DNA from: Mycobacterium senriense | GTDB lineage: Bacteria; Actinomycetota; Actinomycetes; Mycobacteriales; Mycobacteriaceae | Assembly (NCBI RefSeq): GCF_019668465.1 | Contig: NZ_AP024828.1 | Span: 5,022,001-5,086,000 of the forward strand | DNA: 64,000 nt | Direction of reading: 5' to 3' | Shown: piece by piece, positions 1 through 52,491 of the stretch | Position numbering within the stretch: position 1 is the stretch's first letter | Layout: each line of letters starts with the position of its first letter | Notes under the pieces: generated by a model | Told to the model about the DNA's origin: nothing | The model's database searches: none | Seen by the model: only the letters and a program-made list of their open reading frames with translations | Program-made: the position numbers and the translations under genes

Positions 1-173
1 TCGTCGACGTCTATTCGCCGTTCGCCGGCCTCGATACGTCGCAATCCCAACGGCGGAATCGGACGGCCGAGGCCGTCGAGGATCCGGGCCAATTCGGCAT
101 AGGTCAGCCGTCGTTTTTCCCGGAGTGTGCGCACCGTTTCGGCGGCATGGGCTCCGATCGGCCCCAGATCCAT
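1..173 (-). CDS. XRE-family helix-turn-helix repressor, C-terminus cut by window edge
   Basis: Reading leftwards from an ATG at 173, the first 57 residues form a complete XRE helix-turn-helix: TVRTLREKRRLTYAELARIL, then a turn and GLRRIEAGERR. This pattern is typical of mycobacterial prophage and phage immunity repressors, which bind operators between themselves and the early genes. It is transcribed away from the plus-strand excisionase and ATPase genes, across an AT-richer 150-base gap, the normal layout of a lysogeny switch. Its stop lies left of the window, so full length is unknown. DNA binding is secure from the motif; the immunity role is inferred from position. Confidence 0.8.
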   Translation of the reverse strand, partial: MDLGPIGAHAAETVRTLREKRRLTYAELARILDGLGRPIPPLGLRRIEAGERRIDVD

Positions 174-326
174 CGACTTACCTGACACGCCACGAGTATG
201 CGCGATCAAAAATGAAGATTCAAGTATCAGAGTGATGTTGGTTTGCGCAATAAATCGAGACCGTCTATAACTTGATGGAGACGCGATCAGACTGAACGCG
301 GATGAGATCAAAGATAGAGGTTTCAG
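174..326. promoter_or_regulatory. Divergent control region between repressor and early genes
   Basis: This gap separates the leftward repressor from the rightward early operon and is clearly AT-richer than the surrounding genes. It should hold both promoters and the repressor operators. I did not find a clean long palindrome, so operator positions are not assigned. Confidence 0.5.
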
Positions 327-548
327 ATGGGCGGCAACGACCTTCCCGAAGTCATGACATCGGCCGAGCTGGCCAAATTCATGCGAACAACGCCCGCATC
401 ACTGGCACAGGATCGGTACCTCGGCCGCGGTGTCCCCTTCGTCAGATTCGGGGAACGGCGCGTCCGGTATTTGCGCTCAGATGTGCTCGCTTACCTCGCC
501 GCGAACCGGATGCAGCGCACCGACGATCAGCGCAGCGCCGTGGTATGA
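327..548 (+). CDS. Excisionase-like helix-turn-helix protein (AlpA/HTH_17 type)
   Basis: A 73-residue protein whose middle part (about residues 10-60) fits the MerR-like HTH_17 fold: MTSAELAKFMRTTPASLAQ, then RYLGRGVPFVRFGERRVRYLRSDVLAYL. Proteins of this size and fold act as excisionases (directionality factors) or as activators of integrase and early genes in temperate elements. It is the first gene rightwards after the repressor, as expected for such a factor. It ends at a TGA overlapping an ATG at 545, so a further coupled small frame is possible. Fold assignment is good; excisionase versus activator cannot be decided without the integrase and att arms. Confidence 0.7.
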   Translation: MGGNDLPEVMTSAELAKFMRTTPASLAQDRYLGRGVPFVRFGERRVRYLRSDVLAYLAANRMQRTDDQRSAVV

Positions 549-560
549 GCCAGAAACGAG

Positions 561-594
561 GAAGCCGGCGCCCGGATGGTGGGGCGCCGGCTTC
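561..594 (+). terminator. Perfect 13-bp hairpin after the HTH gene
   Basis: Bases 561-573 and 582-594 are exact reverse complements (gaagccggcgccc) with an 8-base loop. There is no T-run after the stem, so it may be an attenuator, a Rho-assisted terminator or an RNA structure rather than a classical terminator. It lies 13 bases after the stop of the HTH gene and before the ATPase gene. Confidence 0.6.
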
Positions 595-632
595 CAGATC
601 CCAGTTGCCACCGCTGACGAAAGAGACCAGCT

Positions 633-755
633 GTGAGTCTAGCGCTGGCAACCGACACGGGCACGGCGCTGAGCTGTTGGCGCAATTGCGGCGCAGACAT
701 GAAGCGGCGCGCCGGCTTCCGCCGCTGCCACACACCCGCCGACGTGACCCGCTGA
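633..755 (+). CDS. Possible 40-residue cysteine-bearing small protein
   Basis: A GTG at 633 opens a 40-codon frame ending 33 bases before the ATPase gene. It encodes three cysteines and a histidine spaced as CWRNC and, 13 residues later, CH, which could hold a zinc ion. Short knuckle proteins of this kind are common at this place in mycobacterial elements. Coding is not proven: the frame is short, and a second frame from 545 to 796 (84 codons, ATG overlapping the previous stop) spans the same bases. At most one of the two is real. Confidence 0.3.
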   Translation: MSLALATDTGTALSCWRNCGADMKRRAGFRRCHTPADVTR

Positions 756-788
756 CGCCGCGAGAACGGGCCGACGGGTGGCCGCGCA

Positions 789-2153
789 ATGGCTGACGCT
801 GGCATTGACCGCTCCGACGAGTATCTCGAATGGCTCGCCGAGGACGAACGCCGGGACACAGCGATCCGCAATGGCGCCCACCCGGACGACCCCGGACCTT
901 CTGAACAACCCCCCGACGATGATGGCGCTGAGGCCGCGCAACTGCCCGATCCGGCCGTTACAGGCGCCCGGTTCATCCTCGACCAACCCGCCGAGGTACC
1001 CGCGATATGGGGCGAAGGCACCCAAGTGCTCTGGGCGCCAGGAGAAGCGCTGATGATCGCCGGTCCGCAAGGCGTCGGAAAAACCACGCTGGCCGGGCTC
1101 ATCGTCAAAGCACTCCTCGGCGGCCTCGAAACGGTCCTGGGGCTGCCCTTCGCTGAGTTCGACGGCCGGATTTTGTACTTAGCGATGGACCGTCCGCGGC
1201 AGATATCACGTTCGCTGCGAAGGCAATTCAGCGAAAGCGATCGCCCGCTACTGACACAGCGGCTCACTGTGCGCCCGGGCCCGCCGGCCGCCGACATCGC
1301 GGTCAATCCGACGCTGCTCGCGGCGATGGCTACCCAACACGCGGCCGACGTCGTGATCGTCGACTCGCTGAAAGACGCCGCGATCGGCCTCTCTGACGAC
1401 ACCGTAGGCGCCAGCTACAACCGCGCGCGCCAACACCTTCTGACCTCGGGCTGTCAGCTCATCGAGCTGCATCACGTTGTCAAGCGCAACAACCGACATG
1501 ACCAGCCCGGCTCGGCCGTGGACATGATTTACGGCTCGACATGGCTGACCTCCGGCTGCGGCTCGGTCATCCTGCTCGGCGGTGAACCTGGCGATCCTAT
1601 TGTCGGGTTCCGACATGTCAAGCAGCCCGCCGAGGAAGTGGGCCCGTACCATCTGCTGCACGACCAAGGCGCGGGGATCCTGTCGATTGAGCACGGTATC
1701 AATCTCGTCGAGCTGGTGAAGGCGTCTGGGCCGGACGGGCTGACCGCGAAGGGCGCGGCGCAAGCGATTACCGAGAAGCCGCAACCAAGCCGCGCCGATA
1801 TTGAGAAGGGGCGCCGCAAACTCGACAAGCTAGTTGCTACCGGCGTGCTGGTGCGCATCGAGGGCAGTAAGGGCGGCGATGACGGCGGCGTCGCGGCAGC
1901 GTATTTCGTCGCCGAACGCACCGATCACGGCCGATCACGCGCAGACGAAAAACCGCAGGTCAGGGCCGATCACGGACTTTTCGATACCGACGACGATCAC
2001 GCCGATCACGCACCGATCACGCACAACGACGGAATAGCAGGTCAGGGCGATCACGGCACCGATCACGCCGATCACGCAGCAGGCGATCACGTTTCACCCC
2101 ACCCCTATATAGGGGTGGGTGAACGGACCCCAGAGGCGCCGGCATGCGGTTGA
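789..2153 (+). CDS. P-loop ATPase of the RepA/DnaB-like (RecA-fold) type with C-terminal winged-helix region
   Basis: A 454-residue protein. Residues 92-99 (GPQGVGKT) are a Walker A motif with Lys98, preceded by WAPGEALMI; VVIVDSLKD with Asp195 is the Walker B strand. The region after about residue 290 looks like a winged-helix DNA-binding part (SRADIEKGRRKLDKLVATGVL). This is the family of hexameric ATPases found as replication or primase-helicase proteins of plasmids and phage islands. The last 75 residues are rich in Asp-His pairs because the DNA there carries repeated GATCAC octamers (1922-2091). The stop overlaps the next start. I infer it drives replication of the excised island; the exact enzymatic role is unproven. 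Confidence 0.75.
   Translation: MADAGIDRSDEYLEWLAEDERRDTAIRNGAHPDDPGPSEQPPDDDGAEAAQLPDPAVTGARFILDQPAEVPAIWGEGTQVLWAPGEALMIAGPQGVGKTTLAGLIVKALLGGLETVLGLPFAEFDGRILYLAMDRPRQISRSLRRQFSESDRPLLTQRLTVRPGPPAADIAVNPTLLAAMATQHAADVVIVDSLKDAAIGLSDDTVGASYNRARQHLLTSGCQLIELHHVVKRNNRHDQPGSAVDMIYGSTWLTSGCGSVILLGGEPGDPIVGFRHVKQPAEEVGPYHLLHDQGAGILSIEHGINLVELVKASGPDGLTAKGAAQAITEKPQPSRADIEKGRRKLDKLVATGVLVRIEGSKGGDDGGVAAAYFVAERTDHGRSRADEKPQVRADHGLFDTDDDHADHAPITHNDGIAGQGDHGTDHADHAAGDHVSPHPYIGVGERTPEAPACG
1922..2091 (+). repeat. Iteron-like array: ten copies of CGATCACG
   Basis: Exact cgatcacg octamers start at 1922, 1932, 1967, 1994, 2003, 2014, 2048, 2060, 2069 and 2084, with one more at 2323. Most are read as Asp-His, but the copy at 1932 is read as Arg-Ser-Arg and the one at 2014 as Pro-Ile-Thr. 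The octamer is therefore kept in all three reading frames, which argues for selection on DNA rather than on protein. Replication origins inside or next to a rep gene often have such iterons. Confidence 0.6.
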
Positions 2154-2347
2154 ACGCTGCCGCGGGTCTCGCCGCTTCTGTCGTGCCTAAGTTCCACCCG
2201 GCGCGGATCCAGCTGCGTCTCGGGGACGCGTACCGGTTCACCCTCACCGCCGACGAAGCGATCGACCTGGCAACCCGGCTCGTCGTCGGCGTCGACCGGC
2301 TCCGCGCCGAACAACTCAACCACGATCACGAGAGGACTCAACCATGA
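2144..2347 (+). CDS. Small hypothetical island protein (67 aa)
   Basis: The ATG lies inside the last codons of the ATPase gene and the stop overlaps the next start, so it is held in a tightly coupled operon. The sequence contains FHPARIQLRLGDAYRFTLTADEAIDLATRLV, a beta-alpha arrangement without a recognisable motif. It is likely an early accessory protein of the element. The eleventh GATCAC octamer lies near its end at 2323. I do not recognise the family. Confidence 0.55.
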   Translation: MRLNAAAGLAASVVPKFHPARIQLRLGDAYRFTLTADEAIDLATRLVVGVDRLRAEQLNHDHERTQP

Positions 2348-2670
2348 CTGAGCAAGTGCCCCTGGATGATCCGCGCCGGCATATCCGGATCCGGCTCCGA
2401 GCCGCTCAAATCCTCGTACACGCCCTGTGGTCCGGGCTCTGGCCCGAAGGGGCCGAACTCGCCCGCCGGTCCGCCCTGAACGATTTCGGGCCCGACGCGT
2501 CCGCGGAAATCCTGCCCGCCGTGCTCGGGCTGCTTCACGAGTACGCCGACGAACCGCTCGCGATGACAAGCAAGCTGCGCGAAGAGATCGCGCGGCTGCA
2601 CCTGTACCTCGCGGACGTGGGGGCGGACGGCAAGATCACGATGCCCGGCGACAACACCAGCGGCGCATGA
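2344..2670 (+). CDS. Hypothetical island protein (108 aa)
   Basis: Begins with an ATG overlapping the preceding stop (ATG at 2344, previous stop ending 2347) and follows a GAGAGGA ribosome-binding sequence. The product is predicted to be mostly helical (RIRLRAAQILVHALWSGL; ILPAVLGLLHEYADEP; SKLREEIARLHLYLADVG), with no signal peptide, membrane segment or metal motif. Its place between the ATPase and a DNA-binding protein suggests an early or regulatory role. I cannot name a family. Confidence 0.6.
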   Translation: MTEQVPLDDPRRHIRIRLRAAQILVHALWSGLWPEGAELARRSALNDFGPDASAEILPAVLGLLHEYADEPLAMTSKLREEIARLHLYLADVGADGKITMPGDNTSGA

Positions 2671-3062
2671 CGATTCAGCGCGTTTCGCATGGTGTGCTGC
2701 TCGACGCCGATGACGCCGCCTACCTGGTGGGCGCGCTGTCGCGGTATTGCGAACTGCTGCTGGCGGACGGGAAGCAACCTCGGCCGCGGCTGGAATCGCT
2801 GCGCGCCAAGCTGAAAGCGTCAGCGGTTACTGACGGTTCGCGTAGTAGCTGCGCGGACACAGCGGCGAAAAGCGGCGAAGATCTCGGACATGTCATCGGC
2901 ACAGGCGACGCGCGCCGCATCCTCGGCTGCACACCGAGCGGCGCCCGCGATCTCGCCCGCCGCGGCAAAGTCCGCGCCCGCTTCACCGGGACACGATGGT
3001 TTTTCGACGCCGCCGACGTCGAACGCTACGCCGAAGCCCGCGCCGAACGCATGGAGCGGTGA
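2667..3062 (+). CDS. Helix-turn-helix DNA-binding protein (131 aa)
   Basis: The ATG at 2667 overlaps the previous stop in an ATGA. The N-terminal 60 residues are helical and unknown; the C-terminal 55 residues form an HTH_17/excisionase-like domain: TGDARRILGCTPSGARDLAR, then GKVRARFTGTRWFFDAADVERYAEARAER. The wing (RWFFDAADVERY) is the usual ending of this family. It ends in a GTGA overlap with the protease gene, so it sits directly ahead of the head genes and could be a terminase-small-like or regulatory DNA-binding protein. The fold is clear; the role is not. Confidence 0.65.
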   Translation: MTIQRVSHGVLLDADDAAYLVGALSRYCELLLADGKQPRPRLESLRAKLKASAVTDGSRSSCADTAAKSGEDLGHVIGTGDARRILGCTPSGARDLARRGKVRARFTGTRWFFDAADVERYAEARAERMER

Positions 3063-3631
3063 CCGTGCCTAACGTCGTGACGATTCCCAACGTCGAGCTA
3101 GCGAAGATCGGCGTGCATGAAATCAGCACCGGGACATGGACTGTGACCCGCCAAGACCTCGCTGATGCTGTAGCCGCTTACAAAGCCGGCCTGGTCAGAG
3201 ATCCGGTCATCACCCTCGGCCATGTTGGCGGCCGCGGCGCGCCGGCATTCGGGCGCGTCCGAAATCTTCGGCTCGCCCAGGCCGGCGCCATGCTGGTTGG
3301 GGATTTCGTCGACGTGCCGCGCGCCCTGGCTGCCGTGATGGGCTCGGCATGGCCGCAACGCTCGGTCGAAGGATTGACCGGTTATACCGGCAGCGACGGC
3401 CGCGAATACGGGTTTGTCCTCACTGCCGTTGCCCTGCTGGGAGCCGAATTGCCGGGCGTGGATGGACTATCCGACGTTGACGACGTAGCCGCCCTGTACG
3501 GCGTGGCCGCCCGATCGGCGCGCCGCGTCATCCTCGCCGCCGCACCAGCCAGCGACCGGGCCGCACGCGAACGAGCTGTCCGAGTCGCGGCAGCCCGCCG
3601 GCGCCGCACCCAGATCACGATCGGAGCCTGA
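3059..3631 (+). CDS. Capsid maturation protease (Mu gpI-like)
   Basis: A 190-residue protein from a GTG at 3059 (or 3065) overlapping the previous stop. It has the pattern of Mu-I-type head proteases: a GTWTVTRQDLADAVAAYK start, DPVITLGHVGG around residue 50, FGRVRNLRL, and the QRSVEGLTGY strand followed by GFVLTAVALLGAELPGVDGL. Such proteases trim scaffold and capsid during head assembly. The usual C-terminal scaffold part is missing here and a matching domain occurs as a separate gene at 5156. It precedes the decoration and major capsid genes, as expected. Family assignment is from remembered motifs, not a search. Confidence 0.75.
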   Translation: MTVPNVVTIPNVELAKIGVHEISTGTWTVTRQDLADAVAAYKAGLVRDPVITLGHVGGRGAPAFGRVRNLRLAQAGAMLVGDFVDVPRALAAVMGSAWPQRSVEGLTGYTGSDGREYGFVLTAVALLGAELPGVDGLSDVDDVAALYGVAARSARRVILAAAPASDRAARERAVRVAAARRRRTQITIGA

Positions 3632-3634
3632 CAA

Positions 3635-3811
3635 GTGCCCGCAAAAGTGTCAGGTCTCGCCGCGTTCCGCGCCGCGAGGGAGCGCCACGTCGAGCAGCAT
3701 CGCCGCAATCCGCGCGCCGGCGCCGCCGAGCAGAAGCGCCACGCATCCGAGGCCGTGCGACGCCGCCGCACCCAGCCAACCGTCAACAAACCCGCAGTTC
3801 GCCGAATCTGA
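3635..3811 (+). CDS. Small very basic protein (58 aa) in the head module
   Basis: A GTG at 3635, three bases after the protease stop, opens a 58-residue frame dense in arginine and lysine (FRAARERHVEQHRRN; KRHASEAVRRRRTQ). It could be a DNA-binding or head-internal protein. The frame fills the gap between protease and decoration genes without overlap, which supports coding. No family recognised; low complexity makes this less certain. Confidence 0.5.
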   Translation: MPAKVSGLAAFRAARERHVEQHRRNPRAGAAEQKRHASEAVRRRRTQPTVNKPAVRRI

Positions 3812-3827
3812 TAGGAGCAACCAACAC

Positions 3828-4214
3828 ATGAGCACCACGATCACCGCGCCCTGGTCTTACGAGCCGCCGAGCCATCACCGCATCACCGCGCAGGCGACCG
3901 CGAATGTGACTGAGCGGCATTTCGTTTCGATCAGCGGTAACCGCGCGGTCGGCGGGAACCTCGCTGTCGCCCCGTCGGCGGCCGGCGACCGGCCGTTCGG
4001 CGTTGCCGCCTACTCTGCGCCCGCCGGGCAGCTCGTCCTCGTCGCCCGGGGCGGTGTCGTCAAGGTGATCGCGGCCGGCGCGATTGCGGCCGGCGCGGCC
4101 GTGCAGGTCGGTACCGGCGGCGCAGTCTCGACCGCCAGCGGCACCAACCCGGTTGTCGGGGTGGCCGTCAACGGCGCCGCCGACGGCGGTATCGCCGAAA
4201 TCGCCCTCTACTAA
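3828..4214 (+). CDS. Head decoration protein (DUF2190-like)
   Basis: A 128-residue, small-residue-rich, all-beta protein started by an ATG 10 bases after TAGGAGC. The pattern ISGNRAVGGNLAVAPSAAG, GVAAYSAPAGQLVLVARGG, IAAGAAVQVGTGG and GVAVNGAADGGIAEIALY is that of DUF2190-type capsid decoration proteins, which coat and stabilise the expanded shell. It lies immediately upstream of the major capsid gene, the standard position. Functional assignment rests on composition, length and context. Confidence 0.75.
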   Translation: MSTTITAPWSYEPPSHHRITAQATANVTERHFVSISGNRAVGGNLAVAPSAAGDRPFGVAAYSAPAGQLVLVARGGVVKVIAAGAIAAGAAVQVGTGGAVSTASGTNPVVGVAVNGAADGGIAEIALY

Positions 4215-4242
4215 CCCCACGCACCCGGAAGGAATCCACGCC

Positions 4243-5136
4243 GTGACCACGCCTATCAACTCCCCGCTGCTACCCGTACTGAACGGGCGGCAACTTTCCG
4301 TCGATGTCGCGCTGAAACAGCCGACCATCATCGCGCAGCAGATCGCCAAGCTCGCCGACGACATGATCCTGCTGCCAAAACTGTTCCGGCAGTACGGTTC
4401 CCGCGTCCAGGCAGGAGCCATGCTCTGGAACAGCATCGCATCCTCGGATTACTACACCGCGGGCCCGGTCGAACCTCGCGTTCCCGGCGCCGAATACAAG
4501 CAGATCGAAGGCGTCCTGCCAGACCCTCGGTTGAGTCTCGTCGAAGATTTCGGCGGCGCGTTCACGGTGCCGATCGAACAGGTGCTCCGCAACAACATCA
4601 GCCTGCTCGACACGCAGGTGCTCCAGCTGGCGAACACCATCACGAAAACCCTGGACCTGCGGGCTGTCGCGGCGCTTGAAGCCGAAGACCCGGCCAGCAT
4701 TGCAGTGTCGACGCCGTGGGACACCGCCATCACGGTTGGGCCTCTGGATCAGTTGACCGCATCCAACGAGCTGCCGACAGCTCACTTCGCGGCCGCGCAG
4801 GAACTCGCCGACCGTGACGAGCTCGGCGTCAAGCTGGACACGCTTCTTGTTGCACCGGAGCAGGCACGCGCGCTGCGGACCCTCTACGGGCAATACCTCG
4901 ATCAGGTGTTGAAGTCCGCAGGCTTGACGATGCACTCCAACCCGCGGTTGACCGACGGCACCGCGTACATGGTGCAAGGCGGCATGGTCGGCGTGGTCGG
5001 CTGGGAGTTCGGGCTGACCACCGAAAGCTGGATCGACCAATCGATCCGGTCGTGGCGTGTTCAGTCGTTCGCCGTGCCGGCGTTTGCCGTGGACCGGCCG
5101 TTCGCCTGCAAGAAATTGACCGGATTGTCCTCGTAG
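4243..5136 (+). CDS. Major capsid protein (HK97-like fold)
   Basis: A 297-residue protein from a GTG at 4243, nine bases after GGAAGG. The features fit an HK97-type coat protein of the class found with Mu-I proteases: a helical N-arm (QPTIIAQQIAKLADDMILLP), an E-loop-like beta region (AGPVEPRVPGAEYKQIEGVL), an acidic spine helix (LDTQVLQLANTITKTLDLRAVAALEAE), the A-domain helix AHFAAAQELADRDELGVKLD, and a late beta region ending in RSWRVQSFAVPAFAVDRP. Neighbours are decoration (upstream) and scaffold-like protein (downstream). It should form the shell of an island particle; no portal gene is visible. Confidence 0.8.
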   Translation: MTTPINSPLLPVLNGRQLSVDVALKQPTIIAQQIAKLADDMILLPKLFRQYGSRVQAGAMLWNSIASSDYYTAGPVEPRVPGAEYKQIEGVLPDPRLSLVEDFGGAFTVPIEQVLRNNISLLDTQVLQLANTITKTLDLRAVAALEAEDPASIAVSTPWDTAITVGPLDQLTASNELPTAHFAAAQELADRDELGVKLDTLLVAPEQARALRTLYGQYLDQVLKSAGLTMHSNPRLTDGTAYMVQGGMVGVVGWEFGLTTESWIDQSIRSWRVQSFAVPAFAVDRPFACKKLTGLSS

Positions 5137-5155
5137 CGAAAAGGATTGATACACA

Positions 5156-5632
5156 ATGGCACTGACACTCGATGACACACAGTCCGCGGTGCTGCTCGCG
5201 CTGCTCGGACTCCCCGAGGACACCGACGACGTGTCGCTGGTCCTCGACACCGTGCGCGACGCGGTAGCTGTCGAACCCGAGGCACCTTCGGCGATCGCCG
5301 CGGCCGCGAAGAAACACGGCCTCGAGCTGCTCGACGCCGACAGCCACGAAGCGCTCAAACGCGACGCCGCCGAAGGCCGCCGGCTACGCGCGGCCGCCGA
5401 TCAAGCCAAGGTCGAGGCCCAAGTCGACGCCGCGATCGACAAAGGCAAAATCGCGGCATCACGCCGCAAGCACTGGGTTTCGCTGATCGCGGCCGACGCG
5501 GGCATGGGCGAAGTGCTGGCCAGCATCCCCGACGAAACCGCCGTACCGCTGTCCGAAATCGGCCACGCCAGCGCCGAATCCGAGACCCAGGGCGCCGGGT
5601 CCGACACCGGCGTCGGCAAATGGTTCTGGTGA
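5156..5632 (+). CDS. Scaffold-like protein (C-terminal domain of Mu gpI type)
   Basis: A 158-residue, alanine- and acid-rich protein with GAAAAGGA 13 bases before its ATG. Residues 70-130 (ADQAKVEAQVDAAIDKGKIA, ASRRKHWVSLIAADAGMGE, LASIPDETAVP) match the pattern of the C-terminal scaffolding tail of Mu-I-like protease fusions, where a helical linker is followed by a KG-x-I-x-x-x-R-x-x-H-W motif. Here it is a separate gene on the far side of the capsid gene. I infer it assists shell assembly. An alternative is an uncharacterised head protein. Confidence 0.6.
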   Translation: MALTLDDTQSAVLLALLGLPEDTDDVSLVLDTVRDAVAVEPEAPSAIAAAAKKHGLELLDADSHEALKRDAAEGRRLRAAADQAKVEAQVDAAIDKGKIAASRRKHWVSLIAADAGMGEVLASIPDETAVPLSEIGHASAESETQGAGSDTGVGKWFW

Positions 5633-5645
5633 GTAGCCCGACGGC

Positions 5646-6365
5646 ATGAGGGATTACCCGACGCGCCCGCCTTGGACCGCCAGACTGCCCACCCTCGACG
5701 ATTTCCACGGCCTGCCCGCGCCAGCGGGCAACTCGTGGGAATCAGGGCAGCCCGTCAAAGCCAACGGCGATGGCGCCCGATCGTTCGTCTTGGGCGCCCG
5801 ACGCCGCTGCTGGCTCTGCGGCTATCCGCTCGGCCCGCGCGTCTACGCGATCTTCACCGAAACCGGCGAACACTACCGATACCCGGGCCCGCTGTTCGCC
5901 GGCGCCAACGCGATGCACCGCTCATGCGCGATCTACTCCGCCGTCGTCTGCCCATTCCTGCGGCACAACATCTCACGCCGCCGGCTCACCGACCATTCGA
6001 CCCGAGGGCAAGCGTTCGTCGCCGGGTTCAACGGCTACGGCCTGTTCAATCCACCCGGGCACGCCTCGGCGCCGACCGCAAGCGCGGCGGTGCTGCTCGG
6101 ATACTTCGACCTCGCCGAGGAACTGCCCGCCAACACCTGCGCAGCCAACTACCGCGCCGCCGTGGCCGCCGACGCCAAACTCAAATTCACGACCACGCCG
6201 CGCCTGTACTGGACCGATTCGCCCGAAGATTCACGACGCCTCAACGCGATGTACCAAAAGGATTCCATGCACGCGCGGATCGGGCTCGCGCACAGCGGAA
6301 TCGGCCACGGCGGCGGATCCCTCACCACCGTCGGCGGATACACCTACCGGCTGCTGCGAATCTGA
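5646..6365 (+). CDS. Island protein with zinc-ligand motif, first of two tandem paralogues (239 aa)
   Basis: Residues around 57-60 give CWLCGYPLGPRVYAIF and around 95-110 give MHRSCAIYSAVVCPFL, so CxxC plus HxxC and a further Cys could bind zinc. The middle holds FVAGFNGYGLFNPPGH and the C-terminus TTTPRLYWTDSPEDSRRLNA and ending TVGGYTYRLLRI. About half of its residues are shared with the next gene. It starts 13 bases after the scaffold stop and ends one base before the next start, so the pair is one operon with the head genes. No known family or function recognised; a head-completion or DNA-packaging role is only a guess from position. Confidence 0.65.
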   Translation: MRDYPTRPPWTARLPTLDDFHGLPAPAGNSWESGQPVKANGDGARSFVLGARRRCWLCGYPLGPRVYAIFTETGEHYRYPGPLFAGANAMHRSCAIYSAVVCPFLRHNISRRRLTDHSTRGQAFVAGFNGYGLFNPPGHASAPTASAAVLLGYFDLAEELPANTCAANYRAAVAADAKLKFTTTPRLYWTDSPEDSRRLNAMYQKDSMHARIGLAHSGIGHGGGSLTTVGGYTYRLLRI

Positions 6366-7058
6366 ATGCGCCACTCACCACCGCTGCCGCCGTGGCTGGC
6401 CGACATGCCCCGCCTCGACGAATTCCCCAACCTCGTCGCGCCCGCAGACACCGACTGGAAATCCGGCAAACCCCTCAAGGGCGCCGACATCAGACGATCC
6501 GAAGCATTGGGTATGCGGCGATGCTGCGAAGTCTGCGGATACCCGATCCCCGGCCGCGTCTACACCGTTGTCGCAGAAGGAGGGTCAACCGATAGCCACT
6601 TCCTCTACCCCGGCGGCCTGTACGCACAACTCGTGGGCCCGGTGCACCGGAGCTGCGCGTTCTACGCCGTGATCGCGTGCCCGTACCTGAAATACCGGAC
6701 GGCGAGACGGAAACTCAGCGATCACGCGGCGCGAGGCGCGGCGATGATCGTGGGATTCAACAACTACGGCCGCTTCCAGCCGCCCGGCCACACCGACGTG
6801 TGCTTCGGCTACTTCGGCATCGCCGAAGAAATCCCGTTCAACACCTACAACGACATCGCAGCCAACTACGACGATGCGGTCGCCGCGGACGCGAACCTGC
6901 GATTCACCACCGCGCCGCGCCTGTATTGGACAGACTCGCCGGCCGACCAACAGCGCCTCGACGCCACACTCGCAGCCGACACGGCCGAAACGACGGCCCG
7001 GCTGCACGAGGCCGTGACGACCGTCGGCGGCCACCCCTATCGGCTGCACCTGATCTGA
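6366..7058 (+). CDS. Second tandem paralogue with zinc-ligand motif (230 aa)
   Basis: It begins directly after the stop of the first copy and keeps the same layout: CCEVCGYPIPGRVYTVV, VHRSCAFYAVIACPYL, MIVGFNNYGRFQPPGH, FTTAPRLYWTDSPADQQRLD and the ending TVGGHPYRLHLI. The two proteins have clearly diverged at the N-terminus and between residues 120 and 160 (loss of an Ala-rich insert). This shows an old duplication kept under selection rather than a recent copy. Role unknown; conserved Cys/His ligands suggest a structural zinc site. Confidence 0.65.
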   Translation: MRHSPPLPPWLADMPRLDEFPNLVAPADTDWKSGKPLKGADIRRSEALGMRRCCEVCGYPIPGRVYTVVAEGGSTDSHFLYPGGLYAQLVGPVHRSCAFYAVIACPYLKYRTARRKLSDHAARGAAMIVGFNNYGRFQPPGHTDVCFGYFGIAEEIPFNTYNDIAANYDDAVAADANLRFTTAPRLYWTDSPADQQRLDATLAADTAETTARLHEAVTTVGGHPYRLHLI

Positions 7059-7060
7059 AA

Positions 7061-7128
7061 CCAATCCCCGACAACACCAATCCCCAGCGACACCAATCCC
7101 CGCGCGACCATTCCCCGGCGATTCCCCG
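7061..7128 (+). repeat. Short direct repeats CCAATCCCC between the paralogues and the small peptide
   Basis: Exact ccaatcccc occurs at 7061, 7077 and 7093 (16-base period), followed by diverged copies ccattcccc at about 7108 and gattcccc at 7120. The array starts three bases after a stop codon and ends just before the ribosome-binding site of a 24-codon frame. It could be a protein-binding array or transcript leader element. Confidence 0.6.
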
Positions 7129-7164
7129 TTTATCGTGAGCAGCATCCACACGAAGGGGGAAAGC

Positions 7165-7239
7165 ATGATCACGCTGCTGGTGATCGTCGGTGTCGCAGTG
7201 ATCGTTGGGACACTGTTGGGGCGGCGCAAGCTCCGGTAG
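7165..7239 (+). CDS. 24-residue single-pass membrane peptide
   Basis: An ATG preceded by GAAGGGGGAAAGC (a strong ribosome-binding site) opens a 24-codon frame: 17 hydrophobic residues (MITLLVIVGVAVIVGTLLG) followed by a basic tail RRKLR. This is the shape of small phage-borne membrane peptides and of type I toxin peptides. The next 280 bases contain no matching gene. Strong SD and clean hydrophobicity support translation; function unknown. Confidence 0.5.
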   Translation: MITLLVIVGVAVIVGTLLGRRKLR

Positions 7240-7525
7240 AGCTCCCCGCCGCCGACCGTGAAGCACGAGCTCGTAGAGGTTGAACACCTGGCGCTCGATG
7301 CCACAGCGCCGGGCCCCCCGAAAAAAATTCGACGGGGGGGTGGGCGCGACTCCGCACGGTAGACAAAATTTTTGTTCACGCGGGGGTGAAAACTTCCCGG
7401 ACCCGGCGGCCGGTTGGGGCCGATCGGGGCGCTGCGCGGGCTATGCGTGGGACGAAAATCGTTGTGAATCAGCGTTTTTAGGCGCTGCCTGGGGTGGCCC
7501 CGGTTTGGGGCCGGGGCCTCGCGAA
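7240..7525. other. Gene-poor stretch with a short GC hairpin
   Basis: I see no convincing gene. A frame from a GTG at 7258 to 7362 is possible but has no supporting start signal. Homopolymer tracts (gggggg, ccccccg, aaaaaaa) stand out. A hairpin at 7496-7512 (ggcccc, loop, ggggcc) lies just past the end of the reverse-strand gene at 7526 and could help end transcription from both sides. Confidence 0.4.
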
Positions 7526-8086
7526 TCAGTTCTTCACGTATTCGAGCGGTGTCACGTATTCGCTGATCGTGTTCCGCCGTGATTTGGGATATTTGTGGTA
7601 CTGCCGCCATCGGTGTGCCCATCCGACGAGCTTTGTCCCTCTCGGGTACCGGCTTGTGAGTTCGTGGTCGATAGTCCAGGTGAGCGTGCCGTGCGCCTCG
7701 ACGCGTGCAGGCAGTTCCGGGCCTGAGATCTCTCGACCGTGTTCCCGCTCCCACAGGACGTCGATACGTTGCGACCCGTCTGCGGATCGTATGCCGACGT
7801 TGAAAACCGTTGTGGCCTCGGCGCCGCTGTTGACGACGATGATGTCGAACCGGTCCTGGTTGGGCGGACCAGGTTCAGATGGCTGGGTAGGGGTTTTTTG
7901 TGGCGGCGGGCCGCCCATCGTCGTCGTCGTCGCCAGGGTGAACGCGACGGTTACGGTAACGCTCTGGCGGAGGTCGACTCCTAGTCGCGGCCAGCGGATG
8001 TAGGTCTCGACGAACTTCCACACGAAGGTGCCGACCGATATGGCGAACGCAATCCACGCCGTCACGGCGGTAGCGGTGCTGCTCAC
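7526..8086 (-). CDS. Membrane-anchored hypothetical cargo protein (186 aa)
   Basis: One N-terminal membrane segment (residues 7-25, AVTAWIAFAISVGTFVWKF) is followed by a short basic stretch and a beta-rich domain: SVTVTVAFTLATTTT, a Pro-rich loop, FDIIVVNSGAEATTVFNVGI, LPARVEAHGTLTWTIDHELT, and a basic C-terminus. The layout is that of many small anchored proteins encoded as prophage cargo. It is on the opposite strand to the head genes and is first upstream of nothing recognisable, with the next gene 11 bases away at 8098. Role unknown; an accessory (superinfection or host-related) role is only inferred from position. Confidence 0.6.
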   Translation of the reverse strand: MSSTATAVTAWIAFAISVGTFVWKFVETYIRWPRLGVDLRQSVTVTVAFTLATTTTMGGPPPQKTPTQPSEPGPPNQDRFDIIVVNSGAEATTVFNVGIRSADGSQRIDVLWEREHGREISGPELPARVEAHGTLTWTIDHELTSRYPRGTKLVGWAHRWRQYHKYPKSRRNTISEYVTPLEYVKN

Positions 8087-8097
8087 TGTCGGGTCGC

Positions 8098-8316
8098 TTA
8101 GGTTGTGTCGCGGCCGGCCATCTTTCGGCGCACCTCAGCGCGTACGTCTTCTTCTGCGAGTTCCATGCCGGTCATCTCTTTGTACTGTTCGATCGCGGAC
8201 GCAACGGCTTCGTCTTCGGTGAGGCCATCCGGGATCTCGATGGTGCGGTCGTGTTCTTTGGTGATGCGCTCAAGCTCGCGTTGGAGGGCGTCGTCGTCTA
8301 TTTCCATGGACGGCAC
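8098..8316 (-). CDS. Small acidic hypothetical protein (72 aa)
   Basis: A helical, charged protein (MEIDDDALQRELERITKEHD; LTEDEAVASAIEQYKEMTGM; EEDVRAEVRRKMAGRD). It lies 11 bases upstream of the membrane protein gene on the same strand, so both are probably co-transcribed. Size and charge resemble antitoxins, but no toxin-like partner or DNA-binding motif is visible. Start could also be the Met at residue 4. Confidence 0.5.
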   Translation of the reverse strand: MPSMEIDDDALQRELERITKEHDRTIEIPDGLTEDEAVASAIEQYKEMTGMELAEEDVRAEVRRKMAGRDTT

Positions 8317-8372
8317 CGTAACGGCTTGCGAGTCCAGCGCTGGCGGCGCAACGCCGACCCCAACACAGAAAA

Positions 8373-8400
8373 GCGCGGGACACCGGAAGGTGTCCCGCGC
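8373..8400 (-). terminator. Rho-independent terminator for the Cas2-like gene
   Basis: A perfect 12-bp stem (8373-8384 with 8389-8400) closed by a four-base loop. Read leftwards it is followed by TTTT, the usual terminator signature, and lies 13 bases after the stop at 8414. The weaker TT on the other side makes it mostly one-directional. Confidence 0.8.
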
Positions 8401-8413
8401 TTCCCTCGAACTG

Positions 8414-8701
8414 TTAGGTGGTGGCGACAGCTGGCAGATATTTCTGCAGCCACTCGCTGACCGGGGCCGGCAGACCGAACCAGGCCGTGTTGCGAGTCAC
8501 CTCGTTAACCATCACGTGATCGTTGCTGTCGATGTGCGCGAGGATCTCGTTGCACACCTCCATCGCGGACTTGTCGGTGATGATTGCCCAGCTGCTCTCG
8601 AGCAGGTGCGCGTGATACGGGAACGACTTCAGGTAGCTGAAGAGGCTCGCGTAGTCGCGCCCGGGTGCCGACAAATCGTAAGAGACGATGTACCCAGACA
8701 T
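8414..8701 (-). CDS. Cas2-like / SinR-family ferredoxin-fold protein (95 aa), no CRISPR nearby
   Basis: The start MSGYIVSYDLSAPGRDYASL, the central HLLESSWAIITDKSAMEVCN and AHIDSNDHVMVNEV follow the pattern of the Cas2-like family: a beta strand ending in YDL, a helix, the SxW strand, a helix, and a SND-x-hydrophobic strand. I chose the second ATG (8701) because GGGAGAAG sits five to ten bases before it, overlapping the upstream ATG at 8713. The gene has its own terminator at 8373. No CRISPR array, Cas1 or other cas gene is in the window. Such solitary proteins are known from phages and other bacteria; nuclease activity is unproven here. Confidence 0.65.
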   Translation of the reverse strand: MSGYIVSYDLSAPGRDYASLFSYLKSFPYHAHLLESSWAIITDKSAMEVCNEILAHIDSNDHVMVNEVTRNTAWFGLPAPVSEWLQKYLPAVATT

Positions 8702-9057
8702 CGCTTCTCCCATCTACGGTAACGATCCCGATGGCTCCCACCACAAAACCGGCGGGTCATCTGGAACCGCTCAGTCGGCGGTGATACCGTCGGGACCGCG
8801 CGGGGAAAACGCGATGTTCGACGGAACCCCTACCGGGTGGGACGACCCCCCGGCTGGGGTTCTTCGTCGTTATCCGCGAAAATCACGGTACAGCGCCAAG
8901 CGTGCGTCTCCGCGGTTCTGGCCGGCGTGTCGCGGTCGCGTCCTGGCCAAAATCGTCTACAGTTTGTCGCCCTGTTGCAGATGTGCAACAGGTGCCCCAG
9001 CAGTAACAGTGGGAAGCGGCTGTTACTGGCATCCCTAGGCGGCCGTCGCCCCGCCGT
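8702..9057. other. Non-coding stretch with two adjacent perfect hairpins
   Basis: No credible gene in 356 bases upstream of the Cas2-like gene. At 8971-8992 cctgttgca and tgcaacagg form a 9-bp stem with a 4-base loop; at 9001-9028 cagtaacag and ctgttactg form another 9-bp stem with a 10-base loop. The two sit eight bases apart and could be operators, a small RNA or the leader of the Cas2-like gene. Confidence 0.5.
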
Positions 9058-9348
9058 TTATCGCCCGCCGTCCAACATCTCGGCGCGTCGGTACAGGTCG
9101 GTCGATGCCGGCAGCCCGAGCCGGCGGCGTGTCTCGGCCTCGCCGATCCGGTTGACGAGTTGATCGACGATCTCCCGCGCGGGCATCGTCCTGGCGCGGT
9201 TCATCGCCGCGAGCTCGATCGCCAGGTCGAGTGTGGCGGCCGCTAGCGCGGGATCTGCGTCAGGAACACCAGCGAGTTGCATTCGCTCGAACTGAGCTAC
9301 CTGGTCCGGGGTGAGTTGGGCGGCGAAGTTGCGCCAAGTGTTGGTCAT
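9058..9348 (-). CDS. Hypothetical protein at the island end (96 aa)
   Basis: I place the start at the ATG at 9348 because AAAGGAACG precedes it; an upstream ATG at 9393 lacks such a site. The protein is helical: NFAAQLTPDQVAQFERMQLA, a mid segment ALAAATLDLAIELAAMNRAR, and RIGEAETRRRLGLPA near the end. Short proteins with this LTPDQ-x-x-x-x-E pattern are common in mycobacterial elements next to the att site, but I know no function. It is the last island gene before the tRNA fragment, transcribed away from it. Confidence 0.55.
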   Translation of the reverse strand: MTNTWRNFAAQLTPDQVAQFERMQLAGVPDADPALAAATLDLAIELAAMNRARTMPAREIVDQLVNRIGEAETRRRLGLPASTDLYRRAEMLDGGR

Positions 9349-9500
9349 GGGGACGTTCCTTTCGGCTTGGGTTTGGTGGTTCAGATTGCCCACGCCGTGC
9401 CCACACTTTGCCCACAGTTACACATAACTCTTGTGAACTACTGTGATGTCTTTTAGCAGCTAGAGACTGTTTCGGTGCCCTGAACTGAGGCAAAAATAGA

Positions 9501-9524
9501 GTTCGAATCTCACCGAGGGCACCA
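9501..9524 (+). other. att site: 3' fragment of a tRNA gene
   Basis: gttcgaatct at 9501 is a T-loop, and caccgagggcacca gives the 3' strands of T stem and acceptor stem plus CCA. No matching 5' half lies upstream: the base-paired partner GCCCTCG and a D arm are absent. This is the remnant left at the distal end when an element integrates into a tRNA 3' end. An 8-bp inverted pair (ggtgccct at 9474, agggcacc at 9516) frames it. The isotype (Arg or Leu are candidates) cannot be set from this half. Confidence 0.75.
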
Positions 9525-48861: not shown

Positions 48862-50222
48862 GCTCCGCCGCCGCGGCGGTGGTGCTCGCGCACGGTCTCG
48901 GTGGGTCGGGTGACCTTCCGGTGCCCTACGCCTACGCAATGGTCGGGGCGGCATGGGCGCTGACCTTCACGTTCGCCCTGGTGGCGTTCGCGTGGCGGCG
49001 GCCGCGGTTCGATCCGCTCAAGCCGGGCCGGCCCTTGCCGACGGCGCTCACGACGTTCGTCGACTCCCGGGTGGCCAGGGCCTCGGCGGCCGCGCTGGCG
49101 CTGGTGTTCGCGTTGTGGGCGGTGGCCGCCGGGGTGTGGGGTCCCGAATCGGAGTCCAATGCGCTGCTCGGTGCGTTCTATGTGCTGCTATGGGTCGGGC
49201 TCGTGGCGCTGTCGCTGGCCATCGGGCCGGTGTGGCGGGTGATTTCGCCGATGCGCACGGTGTATCTGCTGCTGCGTCGCGTCATCCCGGAGCGGCTCGG
49301 CCGGCCCCGGCTGTCCTATCCCGAAGGCTGGGGCTACCGGCCCGCCGCGTTCGGCCTGTTCGCCTTCGTCTGGATGGAGCTGGCCAGCCCGAACTCAGCG
49401 TCACTGCCGTGGGTCAGGACGTGGATAGCCGCCTACGCCGTGCTGATGCTGGTCGGCGCCTGGCTGTGCGGGCAGCGCTGGCTGGCCCGCGCCGACCCGT
49501 TCGGCGTGTACAGCATGGCCGTCTCCCGGCTCTCGCCGTTCCGGCGCAACCGGGAGACCGGAAAGATCGTGGTCGGAAACCCGCTCGACCATCTGCCGTC
49601 GCTGCCGGTGCGGCCGGGCGTCGTGGTGCTGCTGGCGGTACTGCTCGGCTCGACGGCGTTCGACAGTTTCTCGTCGTCGCCGACGTGGCGCGGCTTTTCC
49701 GATCAGCTCACCCGTGAATTCGGCGCTCCCCCGACATTGGCGTCGTCGATGCTGCGCACCGTCGGGCTGATCGTCTTCATTTGCGTTGTGGCAGTGACAT
49801 TTTCACTTGGGGCACGCGCCACCGGGGGGGTCACCGCGGAGCAGCGCCGCGAATTGCCGGGCGAGATGGCGCATTCGCTGATCCCGATCGTCGTCGGCTA
49901 CATCTTCGCGCACTACCTGTCCTATCTGGTGGAGCGCGGACAGCAGGCGGTGTTCGCGCTGGCCGACCCGTTCGGCCACGGGTGGAATCTGTTCGGACTG
50001 GCGCATCTGCACGTGGCCTACGTCTTGTCCATGCACCCGCCGGTGCTGGCCGCGATCAAGGTGACCTGCGTGGTCACCGGGCACATCCTCGCGGTGATCG
50101 CGGCGCACGACAAAGCCCTGCGGCTGCTGCCCGCCGGGCATCAGCTCACCGGCCAGCTGACGATGATGCTGGTGATGGTCGGCTACACCTTCACCGGTTT
50201 GTATCTGCTCTTCGGGGGGTAG
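48858..50222 (+). CDS. Twelve-helix-type membrane protein of the cupredoxin cassette (454 aa)
   Basis: Its GTG overlaps the lipoprotein stop. About eleven or twelve hydrophobic helices are seen, with conserved-looking features AHGLGGSGDLPVP near the start, PFGVYSMAVSRLSPF, GYIFAHYLSYLVERGQQ, DPFGHGWNLFG and VVTGHILAVIAAHDKAL. His residues in several helices could bind metal or heme. I recall homologues being labelled fenitrothion hydrolase in databases, a label taken from one degradation study; here it should not be trusted. Likely a partner of the two upstream genes. Confidence 0.7.
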   Translation: MSSAAAAVVLAHGLGGSGDLPVPYAYAMVGAAWALTFTFALVAFAWRRPRFDPLKPGRPLPTALTTFVDSRVARASAAALALVFALWAVAAGVWGPESESNALLGAFYVLLWVGLVALSLAIGPVWRVISPMRTVYLLLRRVIPERLGRPRLSYPEGWGYRPAAFGLFAFVWMELASPNSASLPWVRTWIAAYAVLMLVGAWLCGQRWLARADPFGVYSMAVSRLSPFRRNRETGKIVVGNPLDHLPSLPVRPGVVVLLAVLLGSTAFDSFSSSPTWRGFSDQLTREFGAPPTLASSMLRTVGLIVFICVVAVTFSLGARATGGVTAEQRRELPGEMAHSLIPIVVGYIFAHYLSYLVERGQQAVFALADPFGHGWNLFGLAHLHVAYVLSMHPPVLAAIKVTCVVTGHILAVIAAHDKALRLLPAGHQLTGQLTMMLVMVGYTFTGLYLLFGG

Positions 50223-50281
50223 GCGTCAACTGTTCTTACCTCTGATGTGCGGCTTCGCCATCGCCTTTTGAGATTGCCTAC

Positions 50282-51784: not shown

Positions 51785-51978
51785 CACCCAGACTCTAAAC
51801 CGCGAAGGCGGTCTGGGGATCGAACACGAAAATAATTTTCGAGGCGAATCCACGAGTGTCGCAAAGCAGGTCCCGACCGGAGCTTGCTTGTTTACCTGTG
51901 ATGATCTCGAAATGAAATTCTAAGCAGCCTGCCGCCGAACCATATGAAGACACTGCGTGCTCACCTGCTCTTCGGGAG

Positions 51979-52491
51979 CTAGCCACCGATCGGATGCTCG
52001 ACCTTCGTGTTGCCGTCCCAGCGGCGCAAACCCACGAAGCTGCCGTCGATCTGGGCGGGGCGGCCCGCGATCCGCAGCGCCCGCCCGAGTTGAGCGCCAC
52101 CGACGCGCCGGGCCATCGTGACGTGCGCCGTCCACTGTCCGGGCAGGCTGTTCGGCATCGGACCCGGCGTCAAATGCGGACCGCACACCTCGTGCACCTG
52201 GGCATGCAGGGCCAACAGCTGGCCCGTCGGCACCACCAGCCGCGCGAAAACCGCACTGGCACGGCCGAATAACACCGGCGCACCGACGAGGCAGCGCAGT
52301 GGCAGCCGCTCGCTCAGCGGCCTCAGCAGCTCGTCGACGTCGGCGGCGACGCCTTCGGCCACGGCCAGCGTCACGTGCGGCCGGCTGGCCGGTGCCTGAC
52401 TGGGAATTCCGGCCGCGGCCAACGCTTCCCAGATGTTTCGGATCGCCGACTCGGTGTCGCGGTCGAACACCAGCTCAATGGAATGGACCAT
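51979..52491 (-). CDS. 2'-5' RNA ligase family protein (2H phosphoesterase, 170 aa)
   Basis: The two H-x-T motifs are present: RPHVTLAVAEG near residue 40 and QWTAHVTMARRV near residue 130, which build the 2H active site. SIELVFDRDTESAIRNIWE is the LigT-type first strand and helix. The ATG at 52491 shares a base with the bioD stop (TGATG), so it is in the biotin transcript; it corresponds by position to Rv1571. Natural substrate is unknown; family members cleave cyclic phosphates or 2',5' bonds. Confidence 0.82.
   Translation of the reverse strand: MVHSIELVFDRDTESAIRNIWEALAAAGIPSQAPASRPHVTLAVAEGVAADVDELLRPLSERLPLRCLVGAPVLFGRASAVFARLVVPTGQLLALHAQVHEVCGPHLTPGPMPNSLPGQWTAHVTMARRVGGAQLGRALRIAGRPAQIDGSFVGLRRWDGNTKVEHPIGG

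Follow-up and report, generated by a model that had tools for sequence, protein, structure and literature searches.

A 64,000-nucleotide stretch of Mycobacterium senriense DNA (NZ_AP024828.1, positions 5,022,001 to 5,086,000; referred to here as the window) begins with a set of phage head genes for which a preliminary description reported no portal, terminase, tail or lysis gene. This raises the question of whether the locus is an ordinary prophage with overlooked genes or a capsid-forming mobile island that relies on a helper phage.

Limits and gene content of the element

Extension to the left of the window, as the preliminary description had proposed, revealed a tyrosine integrase and the host tRNA, and nothing else. 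The whole element was found to be 10,997 bp, from the tRNA-Leu 3' end to an exact 24-bp copy of it (att repeats), with the gene order tRNA-Leu, tyrosine integrase, repressor, HTH, helicase, hth2, protease, decoration, major capsid protein (MCP), scaffold, cargo and attR. The tRNA fragment described at the right end was confirmed by its identity to the tRNA-Leu(CAA) 3' end over 24 bp, and an Rfam search gave the tRNA as the sole match. The island does end at this fragment, but it starts outside the window, approximately 1.5 kb beyond the left edge (L002 record). The single operon described as running up to the fragment was upheld in part: the helicase is linked to the protease gene by four junctions, all between 2144 and 3062, with overlaps of 4-10 bases (predicted starts), but the plus-strand genes stop at 7058 and are followed by four minus-strand ORFs (7526-9393).

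The repeat at 9396..9429 has a 94% identical partner at L002:8596-8629, which in the excised circle lies approximately 70 bp from the att core on the opposite side. Because the integrase carries the arm-binding domain PF14657, the repeat is a putative arm-type site. The genes pdtaR, tRNA-Leu and cya were spaced 0.1-1.3 kb apart in 4 of the 11 relatives examined (unoccupied site) compared to 11 kb here, and in the other 7 no close cya turned up less than 1.5 kb from the tRNA. When the joined empty site was used as query, no relative gave a full-length match, and the longest junction crossing was 33 bases (G024). The locus is a discrete unit with att repeats and its own integrase, within the size range of approximately 10-15 kb for satellites.

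Profile matches were obtained for every gene named in the preliminary description (repressor, HTH factor, ATPase, protease, decoration, major capsid and scaffold-like; Table 1). The complete repressor matched HTH_3 (2.1e-7) and phrog_11503 (1.2e-22). Hth1 matched phrog_2528 of unknown function (7e-9) and the excisionase/regulator family phrog_66 (5.6e-5), and its relatives lie near integrases in L038, L044 and L054. The protease was scanned as a longer ORF starting at 3011. The decoration protein matched phrog_673 (1.4e-24; labelled head scaffolding in PHROGs) and phrog_122, head decoration (7.8e-5). The MCP profile found nothing better than E 0.47-0.67 among PDB sequences. The product of 5156..5632 is similar to the C-terminal region of the proteases that mature phage heads (phrog_2976, 8.9e-21, profile 268-377 of 394; also phrog_3894 at 337-438 of 458), and the scaffold profile matched inside a KBurrousTX gene annotated 'scaffolding protein'. 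No match at E <= 0.001 was found in the parA fold search (model pLDDT 67.5), and a PADLOC search of the element gave E 0.0024 for the helicase P-loop and approximately 0.05 for two others.

Table 1. Features of the element. Positions are those of the window unless preceded by L002.
Feature	Position	Strand	Evidence or remark
attL core	L002:8502-8525, left of window		24 bp identical to tRNA-Leu(CAA) 3' end
Tyrosine integrase	L002:8574-9704, left of window		376 aa; PF00589 2.4e-20, phrog_1 2.5e-67
Repressor-like HTH protein, 5' part	3..311	-	complete gene L002:9691-10311, 206 aa
hth1, small HTH protein, excisionase-like	327..548	+	HTH_17 3.5e-4 (below family cut-off)
AAA ATPase, probable replication helicase	789..2153	+	454 aa; AAA_25 9.5e-13; phrog_6012 DNA helicase 2.3e-113
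Small protein	2144..2347	+	no significant family; relatives in L032, L040, L043, L056
Protein	2344..2670	+	no significant family; relatives in L051, L061
hth2, DNA-binding protein typical of these satellites	2667..3062	+	HTH_17 1.2e-7
Head maturation protease, protease domain only	3059..3631	+	phrog_3894 9.7e-54, profile 2-158 of 458
Capsid decoration/cement protein	3828..4214	+	PF09956 2.8e-10
Major capsid protein (MCP)	4237..5136	+	PF25209 3.8e-11; phrog_1650 2.7e-50; NF042926 2.4e-92
Putative scaffold domain, apart from protease, downstream of MCP	5156..5632	+	likely scaffold role
parA, conserved Cys/His residues	5646..6365	+	14 proteins at E <= 0.001, itself included
parB, tandem paralogue of parA	6366..7058	+	117-nt repeat 74% identical; proteins 52% identical
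Cargo ORF	7526..8086	-	no significant family
Cargo ORF	8098..8316	-	no significant family
Cargo ORF, phage family of unknown function	8414..8713	-	phrog_1090 1.4e-22
Cargo ORF	9058..9393	-	no significant family
Putative integrase arm-type site	9396..9429	+	repeat
attR core	9499..9522	+	exact 24-bp tRNA-Leu 3' end copy (repeat search)

Missing virion genes and the marks of the group

When the 16 element proteins, the integrase and the whole repressor were scanned with profiles, no match to portal, terminase, connector, tail or lysis families was found (the main set held 17 proteins, one of which lies outside the element). Nor did the extension to the left yield a portal or terminase, and the ordinary prophage that the preliminary description had set against its own reading did not emerge. 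A hidden portal or terminase was rejected, the profile scans being empty and the largest proteins being the helicase (454 aa) and the integrase (376 aa). The element lacks the genes for making a virion alone, as a phage satellite does, and the portal, large terminase (TerL) and tail genes of an ordinary prophage.

The relatives comprised 44 satellite loci, some on short contigs, of which 35 had enough upstream sequence. The portal and TerL profiles were built from phages that share this MCP lineage. With them, a portal or TerL upstream of the MCP was found in 0/35 satellites compared to 11/11 phages, a contrast that is partly by construction because the satellite and phage labels were assigned from gene context or record. 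An adaptor was detected in 0/39 and 13/13, respectively (profiles). A divergent portal in the relatives is excluded to the extent of PHROGs scans of 20 large frames, 7 of them without a match at E <= 0.01, with few of the smaller ORFs covered. L038 carries a small-terminase (TerS)-like frame (phrog_1496, 9.7e-9), so that at least one relative is not devoid of packaging genes.

Three further marks are independent of how satellites and phages were labelled. After removal of 12 duplicates, hth2 was present upstream of the MCP in 38/41 satellites and 0/13 phages, and the scaffold lay downstream of the MCP in 32/39 and 0/13, respectively; protease and decoration were each found in 30/41 satellites. 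In the MCP tree (74 loci minus 4 short MCP frames and 13 identical rows, 57 rows in all from 70), a single branch with support 100/100 parts 40 satellite rows from 17 tailed-phage rows. A tblastn search with hth2 against 50,697 phage records gave no match at E <= 0.01. As modelled, hth2 has a two-helix N-terminus and a MerR/Xis-type winged helix, the latter resembling BldC, Xis and MerR structures, with lambda gpNu1 (1j9i) at rank 40; the fold search gave no hit at E <= 0.001. Homology of hth2 to the TerS of the sister phages was rejected (profile comparison probability 0.3%), and a TerS-like role would be a guess.

A satellite-type copy of this capsid lineage was found in 27 of 297 Mycobacterium species genomes, one copy (L055) being decayed; the locus set leaves out a G114 match (E 9.8e-4). 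The search for att repeats covered 20 of 32 loci, leaving out L039, L040, L046, L048 and L050 (no tRNA found), L053, L057-L060 (phage-type), L061 and L062 (short). Repeats bounding the element were found at 17 of these 20, at several tRNA genes, and the bounded elements measure 9.6-12.6 kb (median 10.9 kb; 14/17 within 10-12 kb), a narrow size as expected from a packaging limit. Among the 120 listed of 241 MCP homologues, the longest contig was 10-11 kb for 15, 9-10 kb for 3 and 13-14 kb for none, and the excess at 10-11 kb is as expected from free or packaged element-length DNA. Cargo genes vary from element to element. Between related elements, selection on the capsid genes is purifying (MCP dN/dS 0.04-0.20 in 10 related pairs), with a scaffold value of up to 0.59 in one pair. 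Because the MCPs form a single group, selection is purifying and units bounded by att repeats carry the cassette at more than one kind of tRNA gene, these comparisons indicate that the reduced gene set is inherited and kept, and not a product of decay.

Known systems, helper and packaging signals

The element is a Mycobacterium candidate PICI and not a cf-PICI. Mycobacterium candidate PICIs, the phiRv elements among them, are defined in the available text of PMC10654092 by an integrase and an MCP gene in one region, both present here. They are proposed as mycobacterial satellites, often lie at tRNA genes and carry a helicase and sometimes a scaffold; some include terminase genes. The likeness to phiRv1/phiRv2 is one of gene content per that description alone. 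This text does not describe hth2, the position of the scaffold or the lack of a portal as a general feature, and its main part never uses the words 'portal', 'tape measure' or 'helper'. The cf-PICIs, as far as PMC10690885 was available, are integrated satellites with their own MCP and maturation protease, as here, that depend on the helper's tail, but their genes additionally include those for portal, connectors, HNH and the two subunits of terminase, none of which was found in the element. The Streptomyces satellites MulchRoom and MiniFlayer are likewise actinobacterial and have their own MCP and scaffold, but the same text describes terminase, portal and adapter genes in them without an obvious replicase, whereas the element has a helicase and no packaging genes. 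The sister phages Schnabeltier, prophi91-1 and Rem711 have homologous MCP, decoration and scaffold (and, in Schnabeltier, a protease match); unlike the element, they have terminase, portal, connectors and tail and no hth2 by the MCP, and their scaffold precedes the MCP, lying in Schnabeltier inside the gene annotated as protease.

No helper phage for the element was found in the genome and phage-record searches. A portal of the sister-phage type was detected in 0/27 satellite genomes, M. senriense included, compared to 4/4 prophage controls, so that the helper is either not resident or of another portal type. The M. senriense genome contained neither PF04860 nor PF05133 and no match to the TerL of prophi91-1 (a search without a positive control); three partial hits to phrog_2 (TerL; E 1e-4 to 5e-4) are read as cross-matches. 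A cos/pac or other non-coding motif shared among 16 elements was not found, the k-mer search giving only GC-rich or coding words. Megablast of the element against phage records and plasmids gave no match, and two intergenic stretches reached a best E of 0.5-0.8 against phages.

Alternative explanations and the proposed life cycle

An ordinary tailed prophage that has lost its packaging and tail genes would account for the homology of MCP and decoration to tailed phages and for the decayed L055 copy, but not for a deep MCP group sharing the same reduced set, a scaffold position that differs from phages, the extra gene hth2, att repeats at most loci tried or purifying selection; on the MCP tree and dN/dS this origin was rejected, and we give it next to no credence. 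Encapsulin compartments are HK97-type shells that are non-mobile and lack a phage protease or scaffold. It is barely credible that the shell is such a compartment serving the host, with the integrase as a relic: packaging and tail genes are missing, parA/parB with their conserved Cys/His residues adjoin the shell genes and the satellite genomes lack a sister-type portal, but the element has integrase, att sites, scaffold, replication and repressor genes and a phage-type protease, and its relatives are patchily present, occupy several tRNA sites and differ in cargo.

Transfer could also proceed without a helper, by generalised transduction or by conjugation of the circle, with the shell genes acting in the lysogen only. 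The searches for a helper and a sister-type portal would fit, but no relaxase or transfer family occurs among the element proteins scanned and the capsid genes are conserved, which makes this very unlikely. Finally, MCP and scaffold might poison or co-assemble with the capsid of an invading phage, shielding host or element, with own packaging secondary or absent. SaPIbov5-type islands offer a precedent, since their Ccm is a satellite-encoded capsid homologue that redirects the helper's shell in the available text of PMC8569155; the element itself has protease, decoration, MCP and scaffold. Neither a packaging site nor TerL was found, and in six relatives (L052, L054, L062, L092, L094, L096) hth2 and MCP were detected but protease, decoration and scaffold were not, the MCP match of L054 being split over two frames. 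Against it, protease and decoration, common in the satellites, exceed a decoy's needs, identity to phage MCPs is <=37% among the best 40 of 116 matches and makes co-assembly with those phages less likely, and mobility and the narrow size range are left unexplained; we regard this interference as improbable.

The reading that we favour, with a probability of about 75%, is an intact integrative phage satellite coding for the virion shell only, whose own small head forms on a helper's portal and is completed by the helper's terminase and tail. The preliminary view of a capsid-forming mobile island is supported by integrase, att pair and a set conserved across a deep group. The element belongs to an old family whose members probably borrow the missing portal, packaging motor and tail from a passing phage; the dependence on a helper is one that we infer. 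Under this reading, the repressor would keep the element silent until repression is relieved through infection or induction by a tailed helper phage. The element would then be excised by its integrase and the Xis-like protein and replicated by its helicase. Scaffold, MCP and protease would form a small head, with the helper's portal as its nucleus, TerL of the helper would pack approximately 11 kb, perhaps steered to satellite DNA by hth2, and the helper's connectors and tail would give an infectious particle. The helper's portal would thus be taken over and its shell not remodelled.

Cousin elements point to borrowed tails: in the tRNA-bounded L141, a tape-measure gene comes directly behind a capsid gene of family PF05065. 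More tentatively, and with less than even odds, mycobacteria and their relatives may host mosaic satellites that mix virion parts: a common integrase and hth2-type gene, joined by a shell kit with the scaffold behind the MCP, or by MCP alone, scaffold alone or a full-length tape-measure gene, the helper giving portal, large terminase and tail tube. The hth2-type gene would then be a possible packaging or late switch, and the tape-measure gene would govern how long the borrowed tail is or its properties in entry. The combination of hth2, a downstream scaffold and no portal offers a simple annotation rule for elements otherwise perhaps filed as broken prophages. Phage heads usually assemble around the portal. 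If the favoured reading is true, a satellite with its own shell and no portal requires a foreign portal to fit that shell, and would be a natural test of portal/scaffold/shell recognition and of head-size control.

Boundaries and gene content of the element

The left flank was fetched with the element's own locus (L002; its positions are those of the window, 5,022,001-5,086,000 of the 5.8-Mb contig C1, plus 10,000), and this made the element complete. The integrase and att partner that the preliminary description had proposed to seek to the left were both found there: a tyrosine integrase next to tRNA-Leu(CAA), and the final 24 bases of that tRNA, of which there is an exact second copy at window 9499-9522, 10,997 bases away. 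In the excised circle, a 34-base repeat (94% identical) lies approximately 70 bases on each side of the att core, matching the expectation for putative arm-type integrase sites. A pdtaR-like gene, the tRNA and a cya-like gene (names which we take from the M. tuberculosis map) were 0.1-1.3 kb apart in 4 of the 11 relatives examined (loci L155, L156, L162 and L164) compared to 11 kb here; in the remaining seven, a close cya was absent within reach of the tRNA. A joined-flank query representing the empty site had a full-length match in no relative, the longest match past the junction being 33 bases. At the same tRNA-Leu gene, a second att-like copy of 25-50 bases occurred 10.7-17.2 kb off in three other species, so that further islands probably use this site.

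The minus strand of the left part encodes the integrase and a repressor. On the plus strand follow hth1 (small, excisionase-like), a helicase, two small unknowns, hth2 (DNA-binding), a protease domain, decoration, the major capsid protein (MCP), scaffold and the tandem paralogues parA and parB; behind parB are four minus-strand cargo ORFs. Except for the integrase, helicase and MCP, all proteins are 239 aa or shorter. Portal and large terminase (TerL) proteins are usually larger than the unassigned ones, and thus none of these has the usual portal or TerL size. Elsewhere in the window, a 523-aa membrane-protein-like ORF (50282-51853) lies by a bioD-like gene where GC is low (0.557 in 50001-52000), both names being assigned by eye.

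Satellite loci compared with phage loci

Profiles made for this purpose were run on the 44 satellite loci and 18 phage loci left after duplicate removal, and ratios are given for loci with enough sequence. A portal or TerL gene was present upstream in 0/35 satellites and 11/11 phages, and a head-tail adaptor downstream in 0/39 and 13/13, respectively. The hth2 gene was upstream of MCP in 38 of 41 satellites and in none of 13 phages. The scaffold was downstream of MCP in 32/39 satellites and 0/13 phages, and upstream in 0/44 and 15/18, respectively. One annotated gene of the sister phage Schnabeltier holds both protease and scaffold matches, and the two share a single frame in 5/18 phage loci, indicating that the satellite order is probably derived, by splitting of a protease-scaffold gene and relocation of the scaffold behind MCP. 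In the maximum-likelihood MCP tree, one branch (100/100) parts all 40 satellite rows from 17 phage rows; this fits a single capture of the shell module, ancient enough that MCPs have diverged by about half.

Integrase-capsid elements of Mycobacterium have been published as candidate PICIs (PMC10654092). Capsid-forming PICIs encode their own portal and terminase, according to PMC10690885. In contrast, the window element has neither and is therefore not classed with them.

Distribution, maintenance and mobility

MCP matches were found in 32 of 297 Mycobacterium species genomes. By neighbourhood, 27 were satellite-type (G153 is decayed and classed via MCP similarity; G275 and G287 are on short contigs) and four were prophages (G220, G162, G243 and G281), with G114 left out. 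A portal query from the sister phage prophi91-1 matched 4/4 prophage genomes and 0/27 satellite genomes, so the latter have no prophi91-1-type portal anywhere and no resident sister-type helper prophage. In G153, the MCP is fragmented and a Mutator-family transposase lies inside the 9.8-kb att-bounded element (L055, G153:C1:69800-89799). With 24 loci from a scan across named genomes, the lineage extended to Gordonia, Rhodococcus, Tsukamurella, Williamsia, Nocardia and one contig labelled Acidobacteriaceae. This MCP family was also present in IMG/VR, in five contigs measuring 10.7-11.5 kb and in three phages of 44 kb. Among 50,697 phage records, 116 had a related MCP, with identity below 60% in all and at most 37% among the 40 matches listed.

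The dN/dS of MCP was 0.04-0.20 across 10 related pairs, and 0.35 in the distant pair L002/L032, where dS exceeds 1. In related pairs it was 0.12-0.30 for protease, 0.05-0.25 for decoration, 0.07-0.59 for scaffold and 0.11-0.69 for hth2. Since loci L036 and L076 share 95% MCP identity and just 44% in hth2, and L043 and L045 share 96% in MCP and 62% in scaffold, hth2 and scaffold seem to have been swapped between elements. Of 20 loci searched for att repeats, 17 had them at the end of a tRNA gene (Leu, Ala, Pro, Arg, Tyr, Gly or Asn), and the elements so bounded measure 9.6-12.6 kb (median 10.9 kb). Among the cargo of relatives are genes for trypsin-like proteins, for a DNA methyltransferase and for a protein with a MerB domain. 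For the 120 MCP homologues listed of 241, the longest contigs measured 9-10 kb in 3 cases, 10-11 kb in 15, 11-12 kb in 4 and 12-13 kb in 5; from these lengths, the 10-11 kb peak is read as element-length DNA, free or packaged.

Elements related through hth2 and its possible role

The hth2 profile search also retrieved elements with different capsids, such as the phrog_2263-type MCPs of L138 and L140. Tape measures of 1052-1617 aa are encoded in L140, L144, L149, L151 and L152. Further tail genes were not found among the large frames scanned in the tape-measure elements. Literature searches on tape measures and satellites yielded no account of tape measures borne by satellites; such reports may exist. 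In L139, L144, L146 and L152, the similarity of the gene directly after hth2 to protease families is confined to their C-terminal scaffold part, and the profile for the window element's MCP lineage found no MCP of that lineage; these are possibly scaffold-only satellites remodelling a helper's shell. The genome of the window element also carries a second hth2-type element (L142, G000:C1:4890000-4909999), without an MCP of that lineage; it has an integrase, and a helicase akin to the window's (452 bits).

Features located in the window element's locus and in related loci and genomes (L, fetched locus; G, genome; C, contig)
Feature	Location	Strand	Remarks
tRNA-Leu(CAA)	L002:8451-8525
Tyrosine integrase	L002:8574-9704	-	PF00589 2.4e-20, phrog_1 2.5e-67; gene end adjoins tRNA
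Second att-like copy at tRNA-Leu	within G021:C34:162522-173228
Second att-like copy at tRNA-Leu	within G018:C40:9448-24148
Second att-like copy at tRNA-Leu	within G023:C7:473102-490395
Tape measure, full-length	L141:10504-16606	+	1634 aa, phrog_10780 5.2e-201; PF05065 capsid gene directly before; unit of 15.5 kb between tRNA-Phe att repeats
Tape measure, full-length	L052:11150-15292	+	1380 aa; inside present MCP group; 11.4 kb, bounded by tRNA att repeats
Tape measure, full-length	L140:3548-8401	-
Tape measure, full-length	L144:13173-18017	+	17.6 kb, bounded by tRNA att repeats
Tape measure, full-length	L149:3984-8561	-
Tape measure, full-length	L151:5343-8501	-	13.0 kb, bounded by tRNA att repeats
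Tape measure, full-length	L152:14249-19045	+
Scaffold-part gene after hth2	L139:8492-9139	-
Scaffold-part gene after hth2	L144:9889-10527	+
Scaffold-part gene after hth2	L146:9983-10708	+
Scaffold-part gene after hth2	L152:10232-10963	+
Minor-tail-protein-like gene	L139:3904-7392	-	1162 aa, phrog_346 3.2e-70; downstream of hth2 and scaffold-like gene
MerB-domain (alkylmercury-lyase) cargo	L036:7075-8022	-	9.5e-27
Small-terminase-like frame	L038:8585-9013	-	phrog_1496 9.7e-9; satellite, behind scaffold

At the sequence level, these findings demonstrate an integration unit, shell genes, missing packaging and tail genes, and conservation. Upon induction the satellite would replicate, a small head would assemble on the helper's portal and be filled by the helper's terminase, and the helper would supply the tail. 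An 11-kb genome would suit a small shell of the P4 type.

No description of this shell-only family was recognised in literature searches, subscription journals being mostly outside their coverage. We regard it as a shell-only satellite family within a known kind of element, set apart by its own partner gene and by an order of genes that is derived. The least expected part is hth2, which had zero matches by tblastn of phage records at E <= 0.01 and adjoins MCP even where protease, decoration and scaffold were undetected (L052, L054, L062, L092, L094 and L096). It may act as a packaging adaptor or as a late activator. The small-terminase-like frame of L038 hints that packaging choice can be satellite-encoded.
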